Assembly (NCBI GenBank): GCA_019038645.1
Contig: JAHOYT010000042.1
Location: 1 to 40,451 of the forward strand
DNA length: 40,451 nt
Origin: Bacteroidales bacterium
GTDB lineage: Bacteria; Bacteroidota; Bacteroidia; Bacteroidales; UBA12077
Reading direction: 5' to 3'
Under the pieces are notes generated by a model. It searched no databases. It was given only the letters and a program-made list of their open reading frames with translations, and was not told the DNA's origin. The stretch's first letter is position 1; the number at the start of each line of letters is the position of its first letter. The position numbers and the translations under genes were made by a program. Below are positions 10,818 through 35,077 of this stretch, piece by piece.

Positions 10818-10865
10818 TTCGACAAGCTCAAGATGACAACGACTTGTCACACTGAGCTTGTCGAA
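10818..10865. repeat. REP-like imperfect palindrome
   Basis: Two 21-nt arms (10818-10838 and 10845-10865) form an imperfect inverted repeat: TTCGACAAGCTCA on the left and its complement TGAGCTTGTCGAA on the right, with three mismatches further in. Elements with this core are, to my knowledge, common extragenic palindromes in Bacteroidota genomes. It lies between the divergent rsgA and xth genes. It may be a non-autonomous REP-type element; copy number in this genome cannot be seen here. Confidence 0.6.
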
Positions 10866-16800: not shown

Positions 16801-16878
16801 GGTTAACAAATAAACTGTTGCTGCAATTAAAAACACAACCCAGCCTGTTATACGATTTGCAATTTTAAAATTTCTCAT
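13816..16878 (-). CDS. DUF2723/TMEM260-like GT-C family membrane protein
   Basis: A 1020-aa multi-pass protein of the DUF2723 (PF11028) family, related to TMEM260-type protein O-mannosyltransferases. The N-terminal half holds about a dozen hydrophobic helices. The first loop carries the conserved FWDCGEF, where the acidic residues correspond to the GT-C catalytic site, followed by LEVGHPPGAPLF. A large soluble part follows (about 600-1020), with HGDNDTFPLWY near 655-665 and a helical, TPR-like C-terminus (about 870-1015). In Bacteroidota such proteins are thought to transfer sugars from lipid carriers to envelope proteins, and the substrate here is unknown. It is monocistronic, with a -7 element TAGTTTTG upstream. 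No other glycosylation genes adjoin it. Confidence 0.85.
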   Translation of the reverse strand: MRNFKIANRITGWVVFLIAATVYLLTIEPTTSFWDCGEFIATAFKLEVGHPPGAPLFMIIARVFSLFAGDVSNVAKMVNAMSGLASAFTILFLFWTITHLAKKMFPNDKELTTGQLIVVIGSGIVGALTYTFSDTFWFSAVEGEVYALSSLFTAIVFWAILKWENIADEKYSNRWLIFIAYLMGLSIGVHLLNLLAIPAIVFVYYFKKYPVTRNGVIKTFIVAIAILASIMYLIIPGVITVATWFELMFVNGFGLPFKSGVIFYIILITGFVVWAIHYTHKKKKVLLNTIVLAFTVIMIGYSSFTMIVIRSLADPPMDENNPETVFNLLHYLNREQYGNRPLFKGQYYNAPVTDSKDPFTYRQKDGKYLKSFSLNSIYEFDERFTTIFPRMYSQSNPDHATEYKKWADIKGKKVTVTGYSAEPEIRIVPTFGENLKFFFRYQFGHMYWRYFMWNFSGRQNDTQSHGELLNGNWITGLNFIDKNLIGPQENLPDHMKNAKSRNVYYMLPLLLGMVGFFFHLRRHFNDFIVVLLLFVLTGLAIVVYLNQYPLQPRERDYAYAGSFYAFSIWIGLGVLGIYNFLHKKINAIISASLATMLCLVAVPANMASENWDDHDRSDRYIARDFAYNYLNSCAPNAILFTHGDNDTFPLWYAQEVEGIRTDVRVVNLSLLNTDWYIDQMVRKAYDSDPVPFGITHEQYLNGVRDVVYINERINEYVEIDQAIDFVVSEDVRTKLQVGQNEWIDYLPTNKFIVPVDAEKVIANGTVKPEDADKIVPEIKFVLNKRRIMKNELMILDLLANNNWERPVYFVSTAGDGNVGIDDYLQLEGFAYRLVPIKTPSKGYLETGRVDAEIMYQKLMEDFRWGNMEKPETWMDHTTIRTVSVIKIRNNFNRLAKELIKVGKPDSAVAVLDRCVELMPKENIPYDLFTLDILENYYILGANEKANIILEDFAEITMQELNYYFSLPAKYTGSLDYELRLAVHYLQRLNDFSNRFGDPEVTIKIEEALNNAFSLYSSRNP

Positions 16879-16905
16879 TGCTTATTAGTTAATTATATTT
16901 GGTGT

Positions 16906-21813: not shown

Positions 21814-22431
21814 ATGGAAAACAAACTTCAGGAATTAACTCAGAAGCTTTATAACGAAGGAGTTGAAAAAGCGAATGCTGAGGCAGAAAAAATTATGGCC
21901 GAAGCAAAATCTGAGGCTGAAAAGTTAAAGCAGGATGCTAAGAAAGATGCACAAAAAATTATTGCTGATGCTGAGCAAAAATCTGCAGAGATCAAAAAGA
22001 ATGTTGATGCCGAACTTAGCCTTGCTACAAAACAATCAATTAGAACTGTAAAACAACAAATTACGGACGTTATAGTAAGTAAAGTGATTGATGGGCCGGT
22101 TAAAAAAGCTTTCGACGATATTAAATTCGTTAAAGAGATAATTGAAACTGTAGTAAAAAACTGGAATCCAAAAGGAAATGAAACAATAGATCTTTCAGTT
22201 TTACTTCCTGCAGATATGGAAAAAGAATTTGCTAAATTTTTCACTGCAAAATCAGGAAAAGAGTTAAACGCAAATCTTGAATTAAGTTTTAGCGAATCAA
22301 TTAAAGGCGGATTTAAAATAGGTCCTGCTGACGGATCTTATAAGATCAGCTTTAGCGATGATGACTTTGAGAATTTCTTCAAAACATATCTTCGTCCAAA
22401 AACAATCGAAATGTTATACCCGGGAGAATAG
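21814..22431 (+). CDS. V-type ATPase subunit E
   Basis: A 205-aa peripheral-stalk subunit of the V/A-type ATPase. The N-terminal half (about 1-100) is a long Ala/Lys/Glu-rich coiled coil (ANAEAEKIMAEAKSEAEKLK) that would pair with a G/H-type subunit in better-known enzymes. The C-terminal globular part (about 110-205) contacts the A/B head and includes GGFKIGPADGSYKISFSDDDF, typical of V-type E. It is the first gene of the V-ATPase unit, with the predicted promoter just upstream and the DUF2764 gene 2 nt downstream. No separate G/H stalk gene is visible here. The call rests on composition, the C-terminal motif and operon position. Confidence 0.9.
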   Translation: MENKLQELTQKLYNEGVEKANAEAEKIMAEAKSEAEKLKQDAKKDAQKIIADAEQKSAEIKKNVDAELSLATKQSIRTVKQQITDVIVSKVIDGPVKKAFDDIKFVKEIIETVVKNWNPKGNETIDLSVLLPADMEKEFAKFFTAKSGKELNANLELSFSESIKGGFKIGPADGSYKISFSDDDFENFFKTYLRPKTIEMLYPGE

Positions 22432-22433
22432 AT

Positions 22434-23285
22434 ATGTTTCGTAATTATTATCATTATTTCATAGCAGGGTTGCAGGACATTTTCCTGGATGATACTGAAA
22501 TTCATTTTTCAATGATTGATTTCAAGCAGATGTTAAAAGAGCATCTTCATCCGGAAGATAATAATCTGATAGAACTGTTGTTTTTACCATACGATAACCA
22601 GGAACTTCTGCGATTCGTGAATGGTGATTTTGAAAACAGGAACGATCTTGGACCGTTTTCGACACAGGATTTTGAAGTAGAGTTTTCAGATGAAAAACTA
22701 GGTATTCTGCCTTCATACATGTATAAGTTTGTTGAGTTATACAGAGATGAAGAATTATCAAAGAACATTACAAAAAGTTGGGAAACTGTTCTAACTGAAA
22801 TGTATTACGAATATGTTTTACAAACAAAAAATAAGTTCCTTAAACAATGGTTTGAATTCAGTCGGAATCTGAATAATATCTTAATAGGGCAAAATTGCCG
22901 CAATCACAATCTTGATGTTGAAAAACAACTGATTGGGAATAATTTTGTTACACAATCTATTCTTAATAGTAATGCGAAAGATTTTGGCCTGGATGTAGAA
23001 CTTTCTTACGTTTCAGAAATAATGACACATACCGATAACGAAAATTTATTGGCTCGTGAAAAAGGACTGGACCAACTAAGATGGGATAAGGTAGAAGAGA
23101 TTACTCTATTCGATTATTTTACAATTGAAGTTGTATTAGCATATACAATTAAACTCGATATGGCTTATCGATGGTTAGAGCTCGACGAAGAAACCGGTCG
23201 ACAAATGTTCGGTAAGATCATTGATGATTTAAAATCTGGTTTTGAATTTCCTAAAGAATTTGCAATAAATGGAAAAAATAAATAA
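22434..23285 (+). CDS. DUF2764 family protein of bacterial V-ATPase operons
   Basis: A 283-aa soluble, mostly helical acidic protein of the DUF2764 family. It starts with FRNYYHYFIAGLQDIFLDD and has later blocks EFSRNLNNILIGQNCRNHNL and ITLFDYFTIEVVLAYTIKLD. No enzyme motif is visible. A protein of this type sits between subunits E and A in V-ATPase operons of spirochaetes and chlamydiae, which lack recognisable C, F and G genes. It is therefore a plausible replacement for subunit C/d, the rotor connector between the central stalk and the K ring; that is inference. Spacing is 2 nt from E and 1 nt to the chosen start of A. Confidence 0.8.
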   Translation: MFRNYYHYFIAGLQDIFLDDTEIHFSMIDFKQMLKEHLHPEDNNLIELLFLPYDNQELLRFVNGDFENRNDLGPFSTQDFEVEFSDEKLGILPSYMYKFVELYRDEELSKNITKSWETVLTEMYYEYVLQTKNKFLKQWFEFSRNLNNILIGQNCRNHNLDVEKQLIGNNFVTQSILNSNAKDFGLDVELSYVSEIMTHTDNENLLAREKGLDQLRWDKVEEITLFDYFTIEVVLAYTIKLDMAYRWLELDEETGRQMFGKIIDDLKSGFEFPKEFAINGKNK

Positions 23286-23286
23286 A

Positions 23287-25041
23287 ATGACAAAAGGAAC
23301 AGTAGCAGGAATCATAGCAAACCTTGTATTTGTTGAGGTAGATGGACCTGTTCAACAAAACGAAATTTGTTACATTGATTTAGAAGGTACTAAATTAATG
23401 GCTGAGGTTATTAAGGTTAATGGAACACAGGCCTATGTTCAGGTATTTGAAAGTACCCGTGGACTTAAAGTTAATCATACGGTTGAATTTACTGGTCACA
23501 TGTTAGAAGTAACTCTTGGACCTGGTATTTTATCTAAAAACTACGACGGTCTGCAAAACGACCTGGATAAAATGGATGGTGTTTTCTTAAAAAGAGGAGA
23601 ACATACAAATCCATTAGAAGATGATAAAAAATGGGAATACAAGCCAATTGCAAAAGTTGGTGATGTTTTAGAAGCCGGTGGTTGGATAGGCGAAGTTAAA
23701 GAAAACTGGATGCCTCATAAAATCATGGTTCCTTTTAAGTTCGAAGGTAAATATACTGTAAAAAGCGTTACTAAAGCCGGTGAATATACTATTCATGATA
23801 CCATGGCTGTTGTTACGGACGAAAAAGGGAAAGAGATTAATTTAACAATGATTCAGAAATGGCCTGTTAAATTGGCTGTTAAAGCATATAAAGAAAAACC
23901 ACGACCATTTAAATTACTGGAAACAGGTGTTCGTGTAATCGACACATTAAATCCAATAGCTGAAGGTGGAACAGGATTTATTCCCGGACCGTTCGGAACA
24001 GGTAAAACAGTATTACAGCACGCTCTTTCAAAACAAGCCGAAGCTGATATGATTATTGTTGCAGCTTGTGGTGAACGTGCAAACGAGGTGGTGGAAATCT
24101 TTACTGAATTCCCTGAATTAGACGACCCTCGTACAGGACGCAAATTGATGGAGCGTACTACAATTATTGCTAACACTTCAAATATGCCTGTAGCAGCACG
24201 TGAAGCTTCTGTATATACTGCAATGACTCTTGGAGAATATTATCGTGCAATGGGATTAAAAGTACTATTACTTGCTGATTCAACTTCTCGTTGGGCTCAG
24301 GCACTTCGTGAAATGTCGAATAGAATGGAGGAATTACCTGGACAGGATGCATTCCCAATGGATTTACCTGCAATTATATCGAACTTCTATTCTCGTGCAG
24401 GATTTACTTATCTGAACAATGGCGAATCAGGTTCAATAACATTTATTGGAACAGTATCACCTGCTGGTGGTAACTTAAAAGAGCCGGTAACTGAGTCAAC
24501 TAAAAAAGCTGCTCGTTGTTTTTACGCTCTGTCTCAGCAACGTGCAGACAGTAAGCGTTATCCAGCAATTGATGCATTAGAATCTTATTCGAAATATGCT
24601 GAGTATCCTGAGTTACAGGATTATTTTAGAAAAAATATAGATCCGGACTGGCCGGAAAAAATAGCATTAGCAAGAGATATTCTTATCAGAAGTAGAGAAG
24701 TATCTGAGCAAATAAATATTTTAGGTGATGATGGTGTACCGGTTGAATATCACAATAGATTTTGGAAAGGCGAAGTAATCGACTTCGTAATTTGTCAACA
24801 GGATGCATTTGATGAAGTTGACCGCTCAGCATCACTGGATCGTCAAAAATATATGTTAAATAGAGTTTTAGATATTTATCATACTAATTTCTCCTTTGAA
24901 TCATTTGAAGATGTTGGTACTTATTTCAAGCGAATGATAAACAGCATGAAACAGATGAATTATGCTGTATACGAGTCAGATAAATATCACGATAGTGAGA
25001 AAGAACTTAATTCAATAATCGAAGAAAGAAAGACTGCATAA
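23287..25041 (+). CDS. V-type ATPase catalytic subunit A
   Basis: A 584-aa catalytic subunit of the V1 head, which hydrolyses ATP in alternation with subunit B. Visible are the N-terminal beta-barrel (TKGTVAGIIANLVFVEVDGP), the V-type nonhomologous insert (about 110-190), Walker A GPFGTGKT (234-241, Lys240), the catalytic Glu in ACGERANEV, and the SNMPVAAREAS and DSTSRWA blocks typical of A subunits. I chose the ATG at 23287 (MTKGTV), 1 nt after the upstream stop codon. The ATG at 23269, inside the DUF2764 gene, would add six residues untypical of the family. The stop codon overlaps the start of B (TAATG). Confidence 0.97.
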   Translation: MTKGTVAGIIANLVFVEVDGPVQQNEICYIDLEGTKLMAEVIKVNGTQAYVQVFESTRGLKVNHTVEFTGHMLEVTLGPGILSKNYDGLQNDLDKMDGVFLKRGEHTNPLEDDKKWEYKPIAKVGDVLEAGGWIGEVKENWMPHKIMVPFKFEGKYTVKSVTKAGEYTIHDTMAVVTDEKGKEINLTMIQKWPVKLAVKAYKEKPRPFKLLETGVRVIDTLNPIAEGGTGFIPGPFGTGKTVLQHALSKQAEADMIIVAACGERANEVVEIFTEFPELDDPRTGRKLMERTTIIANTSNMPVAAREASVYTAMTLGEYYRAMGLKVLLLADSTSRWAQALREMSNRMEELPGQDAFPMDLPAIISNFYSRAGFTYLNNGESGSITFIGTVSPAGGNLKEPVTESTKKAARCFYALSQQRADSKRYPAIDALESYSKYAEYPELQDYFRKNIDPDWPEKIALARDILIRSREVSEQINILGDDGVPVEYHNRFWKGEVIDFVICQQDAFDEVDRSASLDRQKYMLNRVLDIYHTNFSFESFEDVGTYFKRMINSMKQMNYAVYESDKYHDSEKELNSIIEERKTA

Positions 25042-26378
25042 TGGAAACAAAAGCATTTCAAAAAATATACACAAAAATCACCCAGATTACAAAAGCAACA
25101 TGTTCTTTAAAAGCCACAGGTATTGGTTACGAAGAAATGGCAATTGTACACGGGCGATTAGCTCAGGTTGTAAAAATTATGGGCGAAGATGTAACACTTC
25201 AGATTTTTTCGGGAACTGAAGGTATTCCTACAAATGCTGAGGTTGTGTTTTTAGGACGACCACCAGTATTAAAAGTAGGTGAAGAATTGTCAGGCCGTTT
25301 CTTTGACGCTTATGGTGATCCTATTGATGGCAGACCAGCCATTGAAGGTGAAGAACGTCAGATTGGAGGTCCTTCTGTGAATCCTGTTCGTAGAAAACAA
25401 CCATCAGAATTTATACCAACAGGTATCGCAGGAATCGACCTGAACAATGCTCTTGTTACAGGACAAAAAATTCCTTTCTTTGCCGATCCTGATCAACCAT
25501 ATAATGAAATAATGGCAATGGTTGCACTTCGTGCCGATGCCGACAAGATTATTCTTGGTGGTATGGGATTAACAAATGATGATTATTTATATTATAAAAA
25601 TGTATTCGAGAATGCAGGAGCATTAGATCGTATTATCAGTTTTGTTAATACAACTGAAAACCCTCCTGTTGAACGTATTCTTGTTCCTGATATGGCTTTA
25701 ACTGCTGCTGAATATTTTGCGGTAGATAAAAAGCAAAAGGTATTGGTTCTTTTAACAGATATGACGCTTTATGCTGATGCATTAAGTATTGTGTCGAATC
25801 GTATGGATCAGATTCCATCGAAAGATAGTATGCCGGGATCACTGTATAGTGATTTAGCTAAGATTTATGAAAAAGCAGTTCAGTTTCCTGATGGAGGCTC
25901 AATTACAATTATCGCAGTAACAACATTATCGGGTGGTGATATTACTCATGCTATTCCTGATAATACTGGTTATATTACTGAAGGTCAGCTCTTTTTACGT
26001 AAAGACACTGATATTGGTAAAGTTGTAGTTGACCCGTTCCGTAGTTTATCTCGTTTAAAGCAATTAGTTATTGGTTCAAAAACTCGTCCTGATCATCCTC
26101 AGGTGATGAATGCTGCAATTCGTTTATATGCAGACGCTGCTAACGCTAAAACCAAACAGGAAAACGGCTTCGACCTTACCGATTATGATGAGCGCACATT
26201 GAATTTTGCAAAAGATTATTCAAATAAACTATTGGCTATTGATGTAAACGTTGAGGTAGATCAAATGTTAGAAACAACATGGAACTTATTTGGAGAACAT
26301 TTTTCTCAGGTAGAAGTAGGTATCAAACAAGAATTTGTTGATAAACATTGGCCAACTGAAAATAGTTCAGAAGTTTAA
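25041..26378 (+). CDS. V-type ATPase subunit B
   Basis: A 445-aa non-catalytic head subunit. It has the barrel domain, the PSEFIPTGIAGIDLNNALVTGQKIPFF stretch (about 120-147) where the Walker A loop is replaced, DMTLYADALSIVSNRMDQIP in the nucleotide-binding core, and the C-terminal helical domain. Length is normal for bacterial V-ATPase B. Its start overlaps the A stop codon. Its own stop codon (TAA 26376-26378) lies inside the first copy of a repeat (GTTTAAAGTT) that belongs to the flank of the following four-helix-bundle gene, so insertion of that element may have reshaped the last codons of B. In uninterrupted operons D follows directly. Confidence 0.97.
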   Translation: METKAFQKIYTKITQITKATCSLKATGIGYEEMAIVHGRLAQVVKIMGEDVTLQIFSGTEGIPTNAEVVFLGRPPVLKVGEELSGRFFDAYGDPIDGRPAIEGEERQIGGPSVNPVRRKQPSEFIPTGIAGIDLNNALVTGQKIPFFADPDQPYNEIMAMVALRADADKIILGGMGLTNDDYLYYKNVFENAGALDRIISFVNTTENPPVERILVPDMALTAAEYFAVDKKQKVLVLLTDMTLYADALSIVSNRMDQIPSKDSMPGSLYSDLAKIYEKAVQFPDGGSITIIAVTTLSGGDITHAIPDNTGYITEGQLFLRKDTDIGKVVVDPFRSLSRLKQLVIGSKTRPDHPQVMNAAIRLYADAANAKTKQENGFDLTDYDERTLNFAKDYSNKLLAIDVNVEVDQMLETTWNLFGEHFSQVEVGIKQEFVDKHWPTENSSEV

Positions 26379-26840
26379 AGTTCATAGTTTAGAGTTATGG
26401 CAACTATAGAGAAATTTGAAGATTTAATCGCTTGGCAAAAAGCAAGACAGTTTGCTCATGAAGTTTATGAACTAACTTGTTTGGATAAATTTTCCCGAGA
26501 TTATTCTCTAGTTGATCAAACAAGAAGATCAAGAGGTTCTGTTATGGATAATATTGCAGAAGGTTTTGAAAGGGGAGGAAATAAAGAATTCATTCATTTC
26601 TTGTTCATTGCAAAAAGTTCTCTGGCAGAAACAAAATCACAATTGTATAGAGCTTTTGATAGAAAATACATTTTAGATGATGTTTTAAAAGAAAAACTAG
26701 AAAAAGCAGTAGAACTTTCCAAAGTAATAGGAGGATTTATAAATTACCTTTTAAAATCTGACATTTCCGGAAGAAAGTTCAATACGAAAAGTCCAAACTC
26801 AAAATTAGGAACTCAAAACGCATAACTTAAAACTCGAAAC
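26373..26840 (+). mobile_element. IVS-like cassette: four-helix-bundle gene between inverted repeat arrays
   Basis: The gene at 26397-26825 is bracketed by short repeat arrays in opposite orientation. Left: GTTTAAAGTT (26373-26382) and GTTTAGAGTT (26387-26396). Right: AACTCAAAAT (26796-26805), AACTCAAAAC (26810-26819), AACTTAAAAC (26824-26833) and an overlapping AACTCGAAAC (26831-26840). Within each array the main copies are spaced 14 nt apart. The two left copies are the reverse complement, with one mismatch each, of AACTCAAAAC and AACTTAAAAC. The cassette interrupts the V-ATPase operon between B and D. It resembles rRNA intervening sequences, whose ends pair and which may encode the same protein family. 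Exact ends and any target duplication cannot be defined by eye. Confidence 0.55.
26397..26825 (+). CDS. Four-helix-bundle protein (23S rRNA intervening-sequence type)
   Basis: A 142-aa protein of the S23/IVP four-helix-bundle family (TIGR02436, PF05635), first known from open frames inside 23S rRNA intervening sequences of Leptospira and related to the Avd protein of diversity-generating retroelements. Typical signatures are KFEDLIAWQKARQFAHEVYE, RRSRGSVMDNIAEGFERGG, EFIHFLFIAKSSLAETKSQL and GGFINYLLKS. The biochemical role is unknown; relatives form pentameric bundles that bind nucleic acid. The last ten or so residues (PNSKLGTQNA) are encoded by the right-hand flanking repeat. It is co-oriented with the V-ATPase genes and has no recognisable role in that enzyme. 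Its presence between B and D is best read as an insertion. Confidence 0.92.
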   Translation: MATIEKFEDLIAWQKARQFAHEVYELTCLDKFSRDYSLVDQTRRSRGSVMDNIAEGFERGGNKEFIHFLFIAKSSLAETKSQLYRAFDRKYILDDVLKEKLEKAVELSKVIGGFINYLLKSDISGRKFNTKSPNSKLGTQNA

Positions 26841-26849
26841 TAAATATAT

Positions 26850-27449
26850 ATGGCAATAAAATTCCAATATAATAAAACATCATTACAGCAATTAAACAAG
26901 AATCTCAAAATTCGTTTAAGAGCTTTGCCTACACTTCAAAGCAAGGAAGCAGCTTTACGAATGGAAGTTAAGCGGGCAAAAGATCAATCGGAGGAGTTGC
27001 TTAGAAAGTTGGACGCAGGCATGAAAGAATATGATGCTATGGTTAGGCTTTGGGGTGAGTTCGAAGATGATTTAATTACAGTAAAAGATGTAAAAATGAC
27101 AGTTAAAAAAATCGCAGGTGTACCTACACCAATTTTAGAAGATGTGATTTTTGAGACTAAGGAATTTAGCCTTTTCAATAAACCAGGTTGGTTTTTAAGC
27201 GGAGTTAAGATAATTGAGTCTTTGGTTAAGATTTCTATTGAAAGTGAATTTTTTGTACGAAAAATGGTGCTTTTAGATTTTGCCAGAAAGAAAACAACTC
27301 AAAAGGTTAATTTATACGAAAAGGTACAAATTCCAGGATACGAGGAAGCTATTTCAAGAGTAAAACGATTTCTTGAAGATGAGGAAAATCTTTCCAAATC
27401 ATCTCAAAAAATTGTTAAGAAACGACAACAACAGAAGGAGGCCGCATAA
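26850..27449 (+). CDS. V-type ATPase subunit D
   Basis: A 199-aa central rotor subunit of V1, made mostly of two long antiparallel helices that turn inside the A3B3 head. The N-terminal helix (FQYNKTSLQQLNKNLKIRLR, then LPTLQSKEAALRMEVKRAKD) and C-terminal helix (YEEAISRVKRFLEDEENLSK, then KSSQKIVKKRQQQ) flank a short globular middle, as in other D subunits. The ATG lies only 9 nt after the last repeat of the inserted cassette, so its ribosome-binding region was probably supplied or altered by the insertion. The stop codon overlaps the I start codon (TAATG). Confidence 0.93.
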   Translation: MAIKFQYNKTSLQQLNKNLKIRLRALPTLQSKEAALRMEVKRAKDQSEELLRKLDAGMKEYDAMVRLWGEFEDDLITVKDVKMTVKKIAGVPTPILEDVIFETKEFSLFNKPGWFLSGVKIIESLVKISIESEFFVRKMVLLDFARKKTTQKVNLYEKVQIPGYEEAISRVKRFLEDEENLSKSSQKIVKKRQQQKEAA

Positions 27450-29434
27450 TGATTACTCCAATGATGAAATATTCTTTCTTAATTTATCACAAGGAGTATA
27501 TCACTTTTCTTGAGAAACTTCAGGAATTGGGAGTGCTTCATATTATAGAAAAGAAGAAAGATATTGATGATAACATCAAATTATCTTTACAACAAATAAG
27601 CGAAATCAACAAGGCCCTAAAATTTCTTGGTAAAAGAAATCAGGAGGAAGTTGCCGGTAATTCTGAAATGGATGGATTGGATTTGGTTGAATCAATCAAA
27701 AATTTAACTGAAGAAATTTCAATCATAGAGCAGGAACAACTTTCATTAAATAAAGAAATTCAAAAGGCGAATCCCTGGGGAAATTTCACTCCTGATATTT
27801 ATGAGAAATTTGCAGATTTGCAAATTAAGCTTAGATTTTTTGTTTGTAGCGAGAAAAAGTTTAATCCCGAATGGAAAGAAAAACATCCTCTTGAAATAGT
27901 AAACACTATTGATGGGACAACCTACATTGTTGCTTTCCAAAGAGGAGCAAATCCAATTGATATTGATGCTGAAGAAGTAAAACTTCCTGAAACATCATTG
28001 TCAGAACTGATTGCAAAAGATAATTCGAATAAGGCTCGTGTTAAAGAAGTTGAAAATATTTTTGATGAATATGCAATTAAACATCAAAGTAGATTAAAAG
28101 ATACAAGGAAGGAATTACAAGCAAAGGCTGATTTTGATTTAGCATTAAATCACACCCAAAAGGAAGCGGAAGAGAAGGTTATGCTTTTGGAAGGTTGGAT
28201 TCCAACTGAGAAAAAAGAAGAACTTGAAAAATCACTTGATGAACAGAATGTTTATTATGTTTCGGCAAGAGCAAGTGTTGAGGATAATGTGCCAATTAAA
28301 CTTAAAAACAATAAGTTTATGAAGCTCTTCGAACCAATAGGTGAGTTATTTGCTTTACCTGATTACAAAGAAATGGACTTAACGCCGTTTTTTGCACCAT
28401 TCTTTTTGCTCTTTTTTGGTTTTTGTGTTGGCGATACAGGATATGGAATACTGTTTTTAGTTGGCGCAACAATTTTTAAATTCAAGGCTTCAAAAGAAAT
28501 GAAACCAATCTTGTCATTACTTCAGATTTTAGGAGTTTCGACAATATTATTAGGAGCTGTGTCAGGAACATTATTTGGGATTAATTTAATTGATACCGGA
28601 TATGTTTTAAATGAGATTTCAATTTCAAACTTAAAAGTTCTTTTACCATCGGATGTATTGGCAAATATTCAACCGATAATCGGAGAACATTTTACAACTA
28701 AAGATGAGTTTGTAAAAGCTGTAACGGCAGTTCTTGGAGAAGAAAGCTTTTTATTATTTAAAACAGACTTATTAAAGAGTGCTATTTCTGATTTCAACTT
28801 TTTAAACAAGTTTAGATATTTGTTATTAGATGCAAACAGCATGTTTAATTTTGCTCTTGTTCTTGGTGTTATCCAAATTATTTTTGGAATTAGTGTGAGA
28901 GCTGCAAATAAAATTAAGCAGTTCGGATTTGTTCATGGCTTATCAAGTATTGGGTGGGCGATGGCGTTTATTGTTCTTATTGTATTTAAGGGAGGTGAAA
29001 GCGCAGGCTTAATAAACTTAGAAAAATATAAGATTCTATTTTATGCTTTATTAGGTTTAAGTGGAGTTTTTGTAATCTTTTTTAATAATCCATCTGCAAG
29101 TATTTTTGCTAGTTTTGGAGGCGGAATTTACGATATTTATGGAACAGCAACTGGTGTTTTTGGTGATCTGTTATCGTACATTCGTTTGTTTGCTTTGGGA
29201 ATTTCAAGTGCAATTCTGGGTTTAGTTTTTAATCAGATTGCGGTACAATTCTTAGAAATTAAATATATTGGTTGGTTACCATTTGTATTGTTATTAATAT
29301 TCGGACACGGAATAAATATATTTTTAGCTTCGCTTGGTGCATTTATACATCCAATGCGTTTAACATTTGTAGAATTTTATAAAAATGCCGGTTTCGTTGG
29401 AGGCGGTAAACAGTATAAACCTTTTTCAAAATAA
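27449..29434 (+). CDS. V-type ATPase subunit I (a-type stator)
   Basis: A 661-aa stator subunit that combines a cytoplasmic arm with the membrane ion channel. Residues about 1-310 are soluble with coiled coils (LVESIKNLTEEISIIEQEQL and 200-270). The membrane domain (about 310-650) has around eight helices, starting at LTPFFAPFFLLFFGFCVGDTGYG, the family hallmark. The essential Arg of the penultimate channel helix is R579 in SYIRLFALGISSAILG. It is shorter than archaeal or eukaryotic a subunits, as usual for bacterial enzymes of this type. Its start overlaps the D stop codon, and the K gene follows after 33 nt. Confidence 0.96.
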   Translation: MITPMMKYSFLIYHKEYITFLEKLQELGVLHIIEKKKDIDDNIKLSLQQISEINKALKFLGKRNQEEVAGNSEMDGLDLVESIKNLTEEISIIEQEQLSLNKEIQKANPWGNFTPDIYEKFADLQIKLRFFVCSEKKFNPEWKEKHPLEIVNTIDGTTYIVAFQRGANPIDIDAEEVKLPETSLSELIAKDNSNKARVKEVENIFDEYAIKHQSRLKDTRKELQAKADFDLALNHTQKEAEEKVMLLEGWIPTEKKEELEKSLDEQNVYYVSARASVEDNVPIKLKNNKFMKLFEPIGELFALPDYKEMDLTPFFAPFFLLFFGFCVGDTGYGILFLVGATIFKFKASKEMKPILSLLQILGVSTILLGAVSGTLFGINLIDTGYVLNEISISNLKVLLPSDVLANIQPIIGEHFTTKDEFVKAVTAVLGEESFLLFKTDLLKSAISDFNFLNKFRYLLLDANSMFNFALVLGVIQIIFGISVRAANKIKQFGFVHGLSSIGWAMAFIVLIVFKGGESAGLINLEKYKILFYALLGLSGVFVIFFNNPSASIFASFGGGIYDIYGTATGVFGDLLSYIRLFALGISSAILGLVFNQIAVQFLEIKYIGWLPFVLLLIFGHGINIFLASLGAFIHPMRLTFVEFYKNAGFVGGGKQYKPFSK

Positions 29435-29923
<489 letters not shown>

Positions 29924-29948
29924 GGAAACAATATTTTATTACGTAACA

Positions 29949-29980
29949 GGACAGTGCAAATTTTTGCACTGTCCTTTTTT
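29949..29980 (+). terminator. Intrinsic terminator of the V-ATPase operon
   Basis: A perfect 12-bp inverted repeat (GGACAGTGCAAA with TTTGCACTGTCC) followed by TTTTTT, 25 nt after the K stop codon. It separates the V-type genes from the F-type genes, so the two machines are separate transcription units. Confidence 0.93.
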
Positions 29981-30014
29981 GTAATATCTGCAAGCATTTT
30001 TGTTATTAATTGCA

Positions 30015-30022
30015 TAAATTTG
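30015..30022 (+). promoter_or_regulatory. Candidate -7 element for the F-ATPase genes
   Basis: TAAATTTG fits TAnnTTTG and lies 21 nt before the atpB start codon, downstream of the V-operon terminator, where a promoter is needed. No convincing -33 TTG is found at 19-21 nt spacing, so confidence is limited. Confidence 0.35.
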
Positions 30023-30043
30023 TAAATACTCAATTTTCGTAGT

Positions 30044-31153
30044 ATGTATAAAATCCTTTTAAATATTTCATTCGTTCTTGCGATATTGATTTTATCTCAG
30101 GAAAACATATTTGCAAACGAAATCACTGAAGAAAAGGATCCGGAACACACACAATCAAATGGTGAAGAACATAAAGATGAGGGATTTAATCCCGGCGATT
30201 TTATTTTTGATCATATAAGAGATAACTACAATTGGCATTTATTTTCTTATAAAGGGCATCATGTTGCCATTCCGTTACCGGTAATTTTGTATAGTAAAAC
30301 ACAGGGCATTGTTTCTTTTTGGTCAAATAAGCTTGATCATAATCATACCTATAAAGGGTTTATAATTGCTCAGGAGGGAGATTATGAAGATAAAATTATT
30401 GAAGTAGATAGTCACGGAGAATTTATTGCCAGACCATTCAATATTTCAATTACAAAAAATGTTACAGCAATTTTATTTAGTTGTTTTTTTCTGATATATA
30501 TTTTTGTATCGGTTGCAAACTCTTATAAAAAAAGAAAAGGATTGCCACCTAAAGGCTTACAATCATTATTAGAACCAGTAATTTTATTTATTCGTGACGA
30601 TGTTGCAAAGTCCAGTATTGGTGAAAAGCATTACGAGAAATACACACCATTTTTGTTAACTATATTCTTTTTCATTTTATTGAACAATTTACTCGGTCTG
30701 GTTCCTTTATTCCCTGGTGGTGCAAACGTAACAGGAAATATTACGGTAACAATGGCTTTAGCTCTTTTCACCTTTTTTATTACAACCATAACCGGAAATA
30801 AAACTTATTGGGGTCATATATTTAATACACCGGGAGTTCCCTGGTGGCTAAAATTACCTGTTCCCTTAATTCCTTTTATTGAACTGTTTGGTGTGTTAAT
30901 TAAGCCATTTGTTCTGATGGTTCGTTTATTCGCGAATATATCTGCCGGACATATAATTGTTTTAGGATTCTTTAGTTTGATTTTTATTTTCGGAAACATG
31001 AGTTCCGGATTAGGACTTGCCGTTTCGCCTGTGTCCATTTTGTTTACCATATTTATGTCAATACTTGAGTTATTAGTAGCATTTATTCAGGCATATGTAT
31101 TTACAATATTATCAGCCATTTATTTTGGGATGGCATCAGAAGAAGATCATTAA
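30044..31153 (+). CDS. atpB: F-type ATP synthase subunit a
   Basis: A 369-aa membrane stator subunit holding the proton half-channels. It has the long N-terminal extension usual in Bacteroidota: a signal-peptide-like start (MYKILLNISFVLAILIL, possible cleavage after NIFA), then about 110 His- and acid-rich periplasmic residues. The channel domain begins near 143 (NVTAILFSCFFLIYIFVS). Near 220-225 is the LLNNLLGLVPLFPGG region, and the essential Arg is R294 in LMVRLFANISAGHII. It opens the F-type transcription unit after the V-operon terminator. In related genomes it directly follows the AtpI-like gene, which here lies about 8.4 kb upstream. Confidence 0.96.
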   Translation: MYKILLNISFVLAILILSQENIFANEITEEKDPEHTQSNGEEHKDEGFNPGDFIFDHIRDNYNWHLFSYKGHHVAIPLPVILYSKTQGIVSFWSNKLDHNHTYKGFIIAQEGDYEDKIIEVDSHGEFIARPFNISITKNVTAILFSCFFLIYIFVSVANSYKKRKGLPPKGLQSLLEPVILFIRDDVAKSSIGEKHYEKYTPFLLTIFFFILLNNLLGLVPLFPGGANVTGNITVTMALALFTFFITTITGNKTYWGHIFNTPGVPWWLKLPVPLIPFIELFGVLIKPFVLMVRLFANISAGHIIVLGFFSLIFIFGNMSSGLGLAVSPVSILFTIFMSILELLVAFIQAYVFTILSAIYFGMASEEDH

Positions 31154-31188
31154 AAATATAAATTATACTCACCATTAAAATTAATATT

Positions 31189-31446
31189 ATGACTACTCTG
31201 GGAATTATTTTACTCGCAATTGAAGGTGCGGCTATTTCAAAAGCTGCAGCAGGTTTTGGAGCTGCTTTTGCTGCTTTTGCTGCTGCTATGGGTATTGGTA
31301 AAATCGGAACATCAGCGATGGAGTCTATTGCCCGTCAACCTGAAGCCGCCGGCGACATCAGATCTAACATGATTGTTGCAGCAGCTCTTATTGAAGGTGT
31401 AGCCTTTTTTGCAATTGTTGTGTGTTTCCTTATTTTATTTGTATAA
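31189..31446 (+). CDS. atpE: F-type ATP synthase subunit c
   Basis: An 85-aa hairpin proteolipid forming the Fo rotor ring. TM1 is Ala/Gly-rich (GFGAAFAAFAAAMGIGKIG), the polar loop is ARQPEA, and TM2 carries the ion-binding carboxylate E69 (AALIEGVAFF). By alignment with the Na+-type c subunit of Ilyobacter tartaricus, the Gln32 position is Ile36 and the Ser66 position is Gly70, so the Na+ signature is missing and H+ coupling is expected. A strong terminator-like hairpin follows 8 nt after the stop codon, ahead of the b subunit gene. This could raise c expression relative to the downstream stalk and F1 genes. Confidence 0.96.
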   Translation: MTTLGIILLAIEGAAISKAAAGFGAAFAAFAAAMGIGKIGTSAMESIARQPEAAGDIRSNMIVAAALIEGVAFFAIVVCFLILFV

Positions 31447-31454
31447 GGATTTTG

Positions 31455-31500
31455 CTTTACAGAGCAGCGGTTGGCTGCCTGTAAAGTTTTTTATTTTTTA
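31455..31500 (+). terminator. Terminator-type hairpin between F-ATPase c and b genes
   Basis: Stem CTTTACAG (31455-31462) with CTGTAAAG (31479-31486), then after one bulged A, GCAGC (31464-31468) with GCTGC (31474-31478): 13 bp with a 5-nt loop, followed by TTTTTTATTTTTT. It meets all criteria of an intrinsic terminator, yet sits inside the F operon with no clear promoter after it. Partial read-through is therefore expected. Confidence 0.88.
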
Positions 31501-31511
31501 AATCGGAAATT

Positions 31512-32006
31512 ATGGAACTGATAAAACCGGATATTGGATTATTGTTTTGGATGATTGTTTCGTTCAGCATTTTGCTTTATGTGCTTATCAAATTTGCGTG
31601 GAAACCAATACTTAATGCGTTAAAAGACCGTGAGAGGTCAATTAGCAAAAGTCTTTTGGCTGCTCAAAGAGCAAAAGACGAAATGGCTAAAATAGAGTTT
31701 GGTAATGAGAAAATTACCCAATTAGCAAAAATCGAAAAGCAAAATATACTTAAAGAAGCCAAAGAATTAAAAAATAAAATTATTGAAGAAGCACGTGAAA
31801 ATGCAAAGCTGGAAGCAAAAAAGATTGTTGAAGAGGCCAGACAAAGTGTCGAGCATGAAAAAAATCAGGCAATAAATGAGATTAAAAACCAAATTGCTGC
31901 ATTATCAGTTGATATAGCTGAAAAAATCATAAAGCAAAAACTTGGCAAAGAATCTAAACAAAAAGAGTTAATTGATGATCTCGTAAAAGATATCGATTTG
32001 AATTAA
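31512..32006 (+). CDS. atpF: F-type ATP synthase subunit b
   Basis: A 164-aa peripheral-stalk subunit. It has one N-terminal membrane helix (about 8-27, LLFWMIVSFSILLYVLIKFA), the KFAWKPILNALKDRE junction typical of b, and a long charged coiled coil (about 35-150) ending in a C-terminal segment that would bind delta. Length is normal. It starts right after the terminator-type hairpin, so its level probably depends on read-through from atpB-atpE. The delta gene follows after 14 nt. Confidence 0.94.
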   Translation: MELIKPDIGLLFWMIVSFSILLYVLIKFAWKPILNALKDRERSISKSLLAAQRAKDEMAKIEFGNEKITQLAKIEKQNILKEAKELKNKIIEEARENAKLEAKKIVEEARQSVEHEKNQAINEIKNQIAALSVDIAEKIIKQKLGKESKQKELIDDLVKDIDLN

Positions 32007-32020
32007 GCTTTTTATAATTA

Positions 32021-32578
32021 ATGTACCACAGCCAAATAAATATCAGATATGCACGATCTCTGTTTCTTCTTGCGGAGGAAAAGGATCTGGTTGACGAAAT
32101 TAAGCAGGATATTGGTCTGATTCTTCAATTGCTTGAAGAAAACCAAGAGATTAATATTTTACTGGAACATCCTGTTGTAAAGGCATCAAAAAAAACAGAA
32201 ATATTAACCAATTTAGTTAAAGATAAAGTTCACGCTTATACAGTGTCGTTTTTGCATCTTATCGTTAAAAATAAACGCGAAAAACACCTTAAAAACATGT
32301 GTAGAAACTTTAATGATTTATATAAAGCACATAAAGGGCTTAAAACGGCTGTTTTAACCACAGCATTTGAATTAACAAGAACACATAAAACAAATATCAA
32401 AAGAGCAATTGAGAAGGCTTTTAACGCTTCGGTTGAGCTAAATACGAAGATCGACGAAGACATACACGGAGGAATGATTATTCAGGTGGAAGACAAACAG
32501 CTGGATTTAAGTGTAGCAAGACAAATTCAGCAATTAAGGAATCAATTTTTAAATATTGATTTCAATAAAAAAGGCTAA
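32021..32578 (+). CDS. atpH: F-type ATP synthase subunit delta
   Basis: A 185-aa subunit that fixes the peripheral stalk to the top of the alpha/beta head (OSCP homologue). The N-terminal six-helix domain (NIRYARSLFLLAEEKDLVDE, LEHPVVKASKKTEIL, FLHLIVKNKRE) is followed by the C-terminal strand pair and the conserved Gly-rich DEDIHGGMIIQVEDKQLDLS, then VARQIQQLRNQF. Length and motifs are typical. It lies between b and alpha, as in other Bacteroidota. Confidence 0.94.
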   Translation: MYHSQINIRYARSLFLLAEEKDLVDEIKQDIGLILQLLEENQEINILLEHPVVKASKKTEILTNLVKDKVHAYTVSFLHLIVKNKREKHLKNMCRNFNDLYKAHKGLKTAVLTTAFELTRTHKTNIKRAIEKAFNASVELNTKIDEDIHGGMIIQVEDKQLDLSVARQIQQLRNQFLNIDFNKKG

Positions 32579-32602
32579 AATTAAAACATTAAAATAATAA
32601 CT

Positions 32603-34186
32603 ATGGATGGAATTAAACCCGGAGAAGTCTCACAAATTTTAAAGAAAGAATTAGAAGGCTTCACAACAAATTCCGAACTTGAAGAAGTTGGTAGTGTTTT
32701 ACAGGTAGGTGATGGAATTGCAAGAATATATGGTTTATCAAATGTTCAGTCGAACGAACTAATTGAGTTTGAGAATGGTATGATGGGTATTGTTCTGAAT
32801 CTCGAAGAAGATAATGTGGGAGCAGTTCTTTTGGGGTCATCCGAAGAAATTAAAGAAGGAGATCAGGTTAAGCGTACCAAAAGAATAGCTTCAATTAAAG
32901 TTGGCGAAAGTGTTTTAGGAAGAGTTATTAATACTATTGGAGAACCTATCGATGGCAAAGGACCACTTAGTGGAGATCTGTATGAAATGCCTCTGGAAAG
33001 GAAGGCTCCAGGGGTAATATACCGCCAACCGGTAAACGAACCTATTCAAACCGGAATTAAACCAATTGATGCCATGATTCCAATCGGTCGTGGACAACGG
33101 GAATTAATTATTGGTGACCGGCAAACCGGGAAAACAGCTATTGCAATTGATACAATTATTAATCAAAAGGAATTTTACGATAAGGGAGAGCCGGTTTTTT
33201 GTATTTATGTTGCTATCGGACAGAAAAGCTCAACTGTAGCAAATATAGCTGATACTTTGGAAAAACATGGAGCTATGGCGTATACTGTTATCGTAATGGC
33301 AACAGCATCTGATCCAGCTGCATTACAGTTTTTTGCTCCTTTTGCCGGTGCTTGTATAGGTGAATATTTTAGAGATACCGGCCGTGCAGCTTTAATTATT
33401 TACGACGATCTTTCTAAACAAGCTGTTGCATATCGCGAAGTTTCTCTTTTACTTCGTCGTCCGCCAGGACGGGAGGCTTATCCGGGAGATGTATTTTATT
33501 TGCATTCAAGACTTCTGGAGCGCGCAGCTAAAATTATTCAATCAGATAAGATAGCAGCCGAAATGAACGACTTGCCTGAATCATTAAAAGGAAAAGTAAA
33601 AGGCGGAGGTTCATTAACAGCGCTGCCAATAATTGAAACTCAGGCTGGTGATGTGTCGGCATATATTCCTACCAATGTAATTTCCATTACCGATGGACAA
33701 ATATTTTTGGAATCTGATTTATTTAATGCAGGAGTAAAGCCAGCAATTAATGTTGGAATTTCTGTTTCTCGTGTTGGAGGAAACGCTCAGATAAAATCGA
33801 TGAAAAAGGTTGCCGGGACTTTAAAACTGGATCAGGCGCAATACAGGGAATTAGAAGCATTTGCTAAATTTGGTTCCGATTTGGATGCTGCTACTATGGC
33901 AATATTGGATAAAGGTGCAAAAAATGTTGAGATACTTAAACAGGGACAGTATTCACCAAACACAGTTGAAAAACAGATTGCAATTATTTATTGCGGAACA
34001 AAAGGCTTATTAGGAAATGTTCCGGTCGAAAAAGTGAAAGAATTCGAAACAGATTTTCTGGATATGATGGAGTTGCAGCACAAAAAAGTGTTGGACACTC
34101 TAAAATCAGGCAATCTTACCGATGAGGTTACAAGTACAATAGAAACCGTTGCAATGGAAGTAGCAGAGAAATATAAAGCTGTTTAA
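32603..34186 (+). CDS. atpA: F-type ATP synthase subunit alpha
   Basis: A 527-aa regulatory nucleotide-binding subunit of the F1 head. The N-terminal segment ([16 protein letters not shown]) binds delta. Walker A is GDRQTGKT (171-178, Lys177), and the core has [29 protein letters not shown] (containing the alpha-family signature region) and [20 protein letters not shown]. The C-terminal helical domain is intact. Its partner beta is not in the window. Gamma follows after 12 nt. Confidence 0.97.
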
Positions 34187-34198
34187 CCTGATATTTGA

Positions 34199-35077
34199 AT
34201 GGGTAATTTAAAGGAAATACGAACACGGACTGCTTCTGTAAAGTCTACCAGACAGATTACCAGTGCTATGAAAATGGTGTCGGCATCTAAATTAAAAAGA
34301 GCTCAGGATGCTGTTATTAACCTTAGGCCCTATGCCGGGAAATTACACCAAATATTATTTCACATCAATCAATCCATTGAACAGGAAGAGGAAAATATTT
34401 ATACACGTTCCGGGATTTCGGACAAAATACTGATTGTTGCTATTACATCGAATAAAGGACTATGTGGTGCTTTTAATGCAAATATTACGAAACAGGTTTC
34501 AACCCTGATTAATGAAAAGTTTCCGGGAGAAAATAAAGAAGGAAATGTTTCAGTTTTGTCTATTGGTAAAAAAGGCACTGATTTTTTTAAATCACGAGGC
34601 TTTAAATTGCTGAGGTTTAATAATGAAATTCTGGATGATTTAAGTTTTGTTAATGCGGTTCCTCTTATTGAGGACGTAATGCAACGTTTTGTGAATAAGG
34701 AATTTGATAATGTAATGCTTGTTTATAATAAATTTAAAAATGCTGCAGTTCAAATATTAACAACAGATAAATATTTACCGATTGAATTGCCTGAAGACAT
34801 TGAAACGGATGATAATTTCGATTACATTTTTGAACCAACGAAGGAATATATAGTGAAGGAGTTAATTCCAAAATCCCTGAAAATTCAGTTTTACGAAGCG
34901 ATGCTTGAATCTTTAGCGGCAGAACATGGCGCACGTATGACAGCTATGCACAAAGCAACGGATAATGCATCTTCTTTAATAAAAGACTTGCAGCTAACTT
35001 ATAATAAAGCCCGACAAGCAGCAATTACAAATGAAATATTGGAAATTGTTGGTGGAGCAGAAGCTTTAAGCAAGTAA
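34199..35077 (+). CDS. atpG: F-type ATP synthase subunit gamma
   Basis: A 292-aa rotor shaft of F1. The N-terminal helix (LKEIRTRTASVKSTRQITSA, then MKMVSASKLKRAQ) and C-terminal helix (ARMTAMHKATDNASSLIKDL ending in KARQAAITNEILEIVGGAEAL) form the coiled coil, with a Rossmann-like domain between them including ITSNKGLCGAFN. Length is normal. It is the last gene of this F-type unit; beta and epsilon are absent. It ends only 8 nt from the convergent ATPase gene, and no terminator hairpin is visible in between. Confidence 0.97.
   Translation: MGNLKEIRTRTASVKSTRQITSAMKMVSASKLKRAQDAVINLRPYAGKLHQILFHINQSIEQEEENIYTRSGISDKILIVAITSNKGLCGAFNANITKQVSTLINEKFPGENKEGNVSVLSIGKKGTDFFKSRGFKLLRFNNEILDDLSFVNAVPLIEDVMQRFVNKEFDNVMLVYNKFKNAAVQILTTDKYLPIELPEDIETDDNFDYIFEPTKEYIVKELIPKSLKIQFYEAMLESLAAEHGARMTAMHKATDNASSLIKDLQLTYNKARQAAITNEILEIVGGAEALSK

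Follow-up and report, generated by a model that had tools for sequence, protein, structure and literature searches.

The intervening sequences (IVSs) of 16S and 23S rRNA are parasitic elements with complementary borders that are cut by RNase III; some of them carry an S23p open reading frame (ORF) whose function is unknown, and they have been proposed to originate by transposition (PMC4990558). The likeness of PF05635 proteins to Avd, the accessory protein of diversity-generating retroelements (DGRs), has appeared in print (PMC10053308), and direct heptamer repeats (TAACTGA) have been described from Beggiatoaceae, Cyanobacteria and Bacteroidetes (PMC4679880). The present analysis concerns a 40,451-nt contig of a Bacteroidales bacterium (JAHOYT010000042.1 of assembly GCA_019038645.1; hereafter the window), in which an S23p/IVP gene, bracketed by inverted arrays of degenerate heptamers, lies between the genes for subunits B and D of the V-type ATP synthase. 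Compared with its relatives, this arrangement is probably an rRNA-IVS-type small mobile cassette living at protein-operon junctions, and the view that arms and gene make up one mobile unit appears well supported by the sequences compared.

The preliminary description of the window had reported an IVS-family four-helix-bundle gene between V-ATPase B and D, and this is confirmed by the matches of the ORF at 26397-26825 (+) to PF05635 (E 4e-32) and TIGR02436 (E 7e-31, four helix bundle protein). The features of the locus are the following:

25041-26378, + strand: V-type ATP synthase subunit B, the upstream host gene (NF002555, E 1.1e-206)
26372-26399, + strand: 5' arm, four degenerate AGTTNNN heptamers, inverted with respect to the 3' arm (lag-7 identity 0.71)
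26397-26825, + strand: four-helix-bundle S23p/IVP gene, 142 aa, with a fold like the S23 family and Avd (PF05635, TIGR02436)
26796-26844, + strand: 3' arm, seven degenerate heptamers, mostly AACTNNA (lag-7 identity 0.60)
26850-27449, + strand: V-type ATP synthase subunit D, the downstream host gene (NF002565, E 6e-61)

The left array reads AGTTTAA AGTTCAT AGTTTAG AGTTATG and the right one AACTCAA AATTAGG AACTCAA AACGCAT AACTTAA AACTCGA AACTAAA, and the lag-7 identity of each was equalled by 1 of 5000 dinucleotide shuffles. Inverted arrays had thus been correctly described on both sides, but not their unit, given as a 10-mer with a 14-nt period; the true unit is 7 nt, and the longer period was seen because every second unit had been counted. 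The coordinates also bear out that the stop codon of subunit B (26376-26378) falls within the left array and that the last codons of the bundle protein, its C-terminus, are encoded by the first part of the right array, as had been noted; the start codon of the cassette gene (26397) falls in the last heptamer of the left array. The best pairing between the two arms covers 19 of 24 positions (score 14; equalled by 10 of 2000 shuffles), and a repeat finder run on the window returned 21-nt arms that are 76% complementary. The ends are able to form a stem around the ORF, albeit an imperfect one.

The evidence for paired arms comes from comparison across loci. An arm score was obtained by local alignment of the upstream flank with the reverse complement of the downstream flank, permutations being made by swapping partners among loci; RNAduplex energies on long flanks (32 loci) had resolved the loci poorly (window pair z 0.3) and were replaced by this measure. 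The main set comprised 80 named loci, from Bacteroidota plus one Balneolota and one Planctomycetota record, of which 78 were scored; being those nearest to the window protein, they are a biased sample (the profile route lacked conserved stretches), and a 29-locus class set covers the wider family. For the 78 named loci the inverted score with the own partner was 21.6, against 12.12 (standard deviation, sd, 0.41) with foreign partners, a value attained in 0 of 20,000 permutations. The same held, again at 0 of 20,000 in each case, for the own genome and its relatives (32 of the 39 first-fetched loci; 20.3 against 11.5, sd 0.58), for the 29 best family matches fetched from the class (18.7 against 10.5) and for eight cyanobacterial cassettes (21.6 against 11.3). 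Of the 78 cassettes, 58 reached a score of at least 17. Control genes rarely did so: 3 of 193 when taken from elsewhere in these loci, and 7 of 231 when taken from a 399-kb portion of the own genome. Same-orientation controls gave 11.9 against 10.3 for the 78 loci, also above all permutations, 12.8 against 10.0 for the 29 class loci, above all permutations of that set, and 17.5 against 11.2 for the 32 loci, where the raised value is mostly due to loci with repeats in both senses (L024, L033). Gene-less hairpins of the heptamer kind were scarce in those 399 kb (by eye, one clear and one partial among 27 hairpins, the sole clear one at 185-312 of L184), and the idea that they form an abundant repeat of the own genome was rejected.

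The arms share a rhythm rather than a sequence. When the flanks of the 78 loci are autocorrelated, maxima appear at lags 7, 14, 21 and 28 both upstream and downstream, a periodicity not seen in coding, distant or shuffled sequence. Among lags 4-12, lag 7 came out highest in 47 of the 78 upstream flanks and in 37 of the 78 downstream ones. The dominant 3' heptamer, in contrast, fell into 41 classes in 62 loci, the other 16 having no dominant unit by that measure. Even within one site the arms fit their own partners: at sufB-sufC (16 loci) own arms scored 18.9 and those of other species 13.3 (0 of 20,000 permutations), with a same-orientation control that was not raised (3186 of 20,000 permutations reach the observed value), and at sufA/iscA-sufB (7 loci) the observed arm score was reached by 118 of 20,000 permutations. 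The arms thus seem to stay complementary while changing in sequence.

The cassettes are placed in a consistent manner. Among the 75 of the 78 loci with scorable neighbours, 68 have the gene in sense between two same-strand genes; when gene triples of these loci in general are counted, 177 of 265 are arranged in that way. A second count, which required close same-strand neighbours, gave 68 of 78 loci in 40 neighbour contexts, a number that is only approximate because the 'downstream gene' of L107 is part of the cassette gene itself (early stop). The same element is found at different sites, most commonly at sufB-sufC (16 of 68) and sufA/iscA-sufB (7 of 68); among the junctions met once are a hisA-hisF-like, a phosphofructokinase-pyruvate kinase-like and an ATP synthase c-b one, named by protein reading. 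In Flavobacterium columnare, a four helix bundle protein stands between guanylate kinase and nicotinic acid mononucleotide adenylyltransferase, there under phage elements (PMC5524665). One clear-armed cassette (L100) lies in a record labelled as a Planctomycetes metagenome-assembled genome; its protein is close to those of Bacteroidota, which points to transfer or a binning error.

Sites with and without the cassette were found both in the genus and in Nostocales plasmids. Eighteen sufB-sufC loci of the genus could be compared (the own genome yielded only distant ABC matches): four carry the cassette, one of them with a broken gene, seven have bare spacers of 38-52 nt, two a one-sided array (58 and 72 nt) and one another hairpin (166 nt), and in the last four (L189, L191, L197, L198) a different 7-nt array, of AGCTTNN type, fills a spacer of 82-97 nt. 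A cyanobacterial TrbI-type plasmid operon, about 97% identical outside the insert, has arms and gene in plasmids of Trichormus and Scytonema and 13 nt between the genes in Aulosira, Nostoc carneum and Microchaete (three records fetched of six listed without the insert at 97% identity); the Nostoc C052 plasmid holds an apparent decayed remnant. The insert is flanked on both sides by an exact 5-bp GTAAT that is single copy in the empty sites, as judged from two filled plasmids against one empty, the three empty ones reading alike. In a second Nostocales plasmid operon (records 90-94% identical), a different cassette occupies each of two adjacent junctions, the plasmids concerned not being the same. 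One junction is filled in two records, filled by a broken copy in one, bare in four and occupied by a short other ORF in the eighth, and the other is filled in one and bare in five. A defined unit is thus present or absent at orthologous sites, the direction, gain or loss, being our interpretation. Three cyanobacterial cassettes at three sites, with proteins 79-83% identical, share their arms, while a fourth, whose protein is 37-39% identical, has different arms, which indicates that arms travel with the gene.

Further observations were made on the cyanobacterial loci. L232 (458-700) and L234 (458-747) contain, by eye, gene-less inverted stretches with heptamer units as in the cassette of the same Nostoc operon family. 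At 1049-1612 of L231 (Nostoc N6), further sequence with a hairpin and array units breaks up a cassette gene, whose annotation reads short four helix bundle protein. Four-helix-bundle genes also lie inside CRISPR operons of cyanobacterial plasmids (L220, 1495-1863; L222, 1492-1851; L223, 1501-1857), twice between cas6 and cas4 and once between cas10 and cmr3, and relatives of two of them (L241, L242) lack the gene.

Miniature inverted-repeat transposable elements (MITEs) and repetitive extragenic palindromic (REP)-type repeats are short, have inverted ends and no transposase, and exist in gene-less forms. The strongest rival explanation, which we regard as unlikely though deserving serious attention, builds on this kind of element: the arms would serve in the DNA as terminal inverted repeats, some transposase in trans would move the cassette as a MITE-like passenger, and RNA pairing would be a by-product. 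In its favour are the exact GTAAT duplication at the TrbI-operon site and the hairpins of the Nostoc operon that lack a gene but share its arm units. Transposases, however, read fixed element ends, and here the arm sequence varies widely, over 41 heptamer classes; the strong sense bias also speaks against it, although selection could produce such a bias, and the duplication is unclear at the remaining sites.

The V-ATPase junction of the window has a history of its own. Subunit D was found in 19 of the 20 genus genomes searched, and the cassette gene is present between B and D in six of these 19 (G000, G009, G010, G011, G015, and G005, where it is cut by the contig end). In 12 of the 19 the junction is gene-less, with 62-109 nt separating the conserved end of B from the D start, and in G014 it is nearly bare (30 nt). 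These gene-less spacers are not plain empty sites, a reading that was rejected: in 10 of the 12, no more than 5 of 100 shuffles equalled the internal pairing, only G018 (25 of 100) and G003 (69 of 100) being unremarkable, and own halves scored 12.9 against 10.8 with halves from other species (12 of 20,000 permutations). On a tree of subunits D and I the gene is patchily distributed, G000 adjoining the gene-less G018. Five of the six B-D genes form one clade (support 100/99), and the sixth, that of G015, groups with genes from sufB-sufC sites (93/88; 98/81 in a tree with unsettled bootstrap). By eye, the 3' unit of G015 is of the sufB-sufC type and its 5' arm end resembles the resident B-D family. 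Our reading is that an old cassette at this junction may have lost its gene several times, leaving hairpins, and was probably replaced once. The ratio of nonsynonymous to synonymous substitution (dN/dS) in the B-D clade is 0.05-0.12 (381 nt), which shows purifying selection on the protein while it is present.

The preliminary description had proposed that gene and inverted arrays form a mobile unit of protein operons, which should show in the flanks of homologous genes and in empty sites of relatives. Both expectations hold: similar inverted arrays flank the homologues in the 32-, 78- and 29-locus sets, in distinction to the control genes, and empty sites occur at sufB-sufC in the genus and in Nostocales plasmids. 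For the B-D junction itself the outcome is divided, with 12 of 19 junctions gene-less and one nearly bare, but a pairing spacer kept in 10 of those 12.

Two further explanations are each improbable, in our estimate to a like degree. In the first, protein and hairpin are a regulatory device of the host, in which a protein that binds RNA, together with a stem of its own, tunes the expression or stability of the operon. The low dN/dS, the repeated use of the suf junctions (16 sufB-sufC and 7 sufA/iscA-sufB of 68) and the matching of arms within a site would suit such a device, whereas the patchy presence among close relatives, the roughly 40 different contexts and the broken copies do not. In the second, spread proceeds mainly through homologous recombination or gene conversion between heptamer arrays rather than by transposition; the B-D copy of G015, with its gene and 3' unit of sufB-sufC type and a resident-like 5' arm end, is what a conversion event might produce, and hairpins without a gene do occur at B-D, but cassettes are also found at junctions that are bare of arrays in relatives. 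That the arms are ordinary intergenic heptamer microsatellites around a vertically inherited gene, their complementarity following from shared A/T-rich units, is very improbable: some Bacteroidetes and Cyanobacteria do have direct heptamer repeats (PMC4679880) and the window arms are not locus-specific, but chance pairing and plain microsatellites are disfavoured by the permutations and control genes, few gene-less heptamer hairpins occur in the 399 kb taken from the own genome, and filled and empty sites differ by arms and gene jointly.

The family to which the protein belongs is widespread. The own genome (3.39 Mb, 102 contigs) contains 9 PF05635 genes, and of 198 genomes sampled in the class 157 have at least one such gene, with a maximum of 22 per genome; in most of the plasmid records listed the product is called just four helix bundle or S23 ribosomal protein. 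An AlphaFold2 model (pLDDT 88) of the window protein predicts a four-helix bundle with a low-confidence tail. The best solved structures found by Foldseek are 2gsc and 2rld, of the S23 family, followed by Avd (4dwl) and a DGR ribonucleoprotein (8ube) with E above 0.05; for 4dwl_D the TM score by target length is 0.87 (E 0.058).

Overall, sequence comparison shows that the elements have a unit structure with element-specific complementary arms, that they are placed in sense, that empty sites and arms-only junctions exist, that the arms travel with the gene and that the protein is under purifying selection. On the reading of a mobile cassette of IVS type, the unit would consist of an inverted degenerate-heptamer array, an S23p/Avd-like four-helix-bundle gene and a matching array, sitting in sense between the stop of one gene and the start of the next and presumably transcribed with the operon. 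In the mRNA, pairing between the two arms would close a loop that contains the gene, which would leave the neighbouring cistrons little disturbed, and by analogy with rRNA IVSs the stem may be cut by RNase III. The Avd-fold protein probably acts on the RNA of its own cassette, and a helper in trans is assumed to be the mover. Looping and excision from the mRNA are plausible, given the rRNA IVS analogy and folding predictions: in partition-function folding of 30 random loci of the 78 plus the window, 26.2 arm-arm pairs were expected with own arms against 14.3 with foreign 3' arms, the own value being higher in 22 of 31 (p 0.0005). We tentatively raise the wider possibility, which we hold with somewhat less than even confidence, that Bacteroidota and Cyanobacteria harbour a large, unrecognised class of mobile elements organised by RNA. 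An Avd-like protein and the heptamer-array stem around it would together be a minimal selfish unit; such a unit would settle at junctions of important operons, do little harm because it is looped out of the mRNA or cut from it, keep its arms complementary despite free turnover of their sequence and leave hairpin scars after gene loss. The rRNA IVSs would be the rRNA-dwelling branch of this class.

Several observations weigh against a mobile, RNA-organised cassette. The locus-specific arm signal comes from the set of loci and not from the window, whose arms are imperfect and not locus-specific: their own score of 14 compares with a mean of 12.3 with other partners, 10 of 31 and 8 of 31 partners being equally good, and folding predicted 26.7 pairs for own arms against 27.2 with swapped ones. 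The whole window element is not unusually stable either (z -1.4). Across loci, 20 of the 78 score below 17, and the same-orientation similarity of the flanks exceeds the permutations in the 32-, 78- and 29-locus sets and in the mixed-site group. The single clade formed by five of the six B-D genes makes long residence with losses likelier than recent jumps at this site. Nor does synonymous divergence clearly point to a recent transfer of the B-D cassette; comparison of G000 with G009 gave values of 0.47 (cassette gene), 0.69 (B end) and 1.32 (D), and recent horizontal transfer between these two was left unsupported. Eleven filled/empty comparisons at seven sites were scored by script for flank overlap, giving 5 and 5 (TrbI), 5, -2 and 6 (J1, where the overlapping letters may belong to the array), 3 (J2), -11 and 1 (integrase), -232 (cas6-cas4), -32 (cas10-cmr3) and -22 (Aulosira). 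The last four sites are too diverged for a duplication to be read, so that target duplication is clear at one of the seven sites, doubtful at two and unresolvable at four, and a general 5-bp duplication is not established. No transposase or reverse transcriptase lies between the arms, where the S23p gene stands alone in the window and in the plasmid cases, and RVT_1 is absent from the own genome (96.9% complete), being present in 6 of 19 genus genomes. A resident reverse transcriptase was for this reason rejected as the mover, and with no RVT_1 in the own genome the gene does not appear to belong to a DGR, template and variable repeats not having been searched for.

Elsewhere in the window, one further 49-nt stretch of the 40 kb (16845-16897) is as 7-periodic as the right array, no other structure of the heptamer-array kind was seen among its 25 best short-loop hairpins, and no Rfam match at gathering score was obtained. 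Directly after the V-type ATP synthase operon come same-strand genes for an F-type ATP synthase (21814-35077; F-type names by ORF reading). A palindromic repeat around TTCGACAAGCTCAGTGTGACA lies at 10818-10865, in two inverted copies where 0 are expected, and palindromes of this type recur with variants in hairpins of the own genome (L170, L172, L176, L187).

If the reading of an IVS-type cassette is correct, the common PF05635 gene, the intergenic heptamer repeats and the rRNA IVSs would be parts of one question. S23p/IVP proteins have no known function (PMC4990558) and yet are very common in the class. The moving enzyme, the reason for a period of 7 and the fate of the mRNA could be addressed in cultivable Bacteroidota and Nostoc, and closely similar plasmid operons with and without the cassette would be ready-made study material.

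Of the known systems, the 23S IVS of Coxiella burnetii (PMC4990558) comes closest: it is likewise a few hundred nt long (428 nt there, 473 nt from array to array here), has an S23p gene and complementary ends enclosing it, and resides within a transcript that the cell needs. It differs in lying in rRNA, where the window gene does not lie, and in having one 28-bp stem in place of element-specific arrays of 7-nt units in protein operons; several copies per genome are found here (9 in the own genome), and RNase III excision, which may also take place here, has been demonstrated for the Coxiella element. With Avd (4dwl, 8ube) the protein shares a similar four-helix-bundle fold, but the Avd chains listed are only 8-10% identical to it and the own genome has no RVT_1 match. 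The S23 structures 2gsc (X. campestris XCC0516; sequence match E 5e-8) and 2rld (B. thetaiotaomicron BT_0352) are its best fold matches, and both were deposited as hypothetical or of unknown function. The heptamer repeats of PMC4679880 resemble the arms in being intergenic arrays with a 7-nt period, but are direct repeats of one unit, with one inverted case in the main genome studied, and in the main text of that paper the terms four helix, S23 and S23p are absent. In the open-licence literature, searched by exact-word matching, no description of S23p cassettes with inverted heptamer arrays in operons was found, which is weak evidence of absence. With MITEs and REP-type repeats the cassettes have in common their shortness, inverted ends, lack of a transposase and gene-less forms, but unlike these they enclose a conserved gene under purifying selection, and their ends are not conserved in sequence between elements. 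The kind of element called IVS is itself known; what appears here is an IVS-type element of protein operons.

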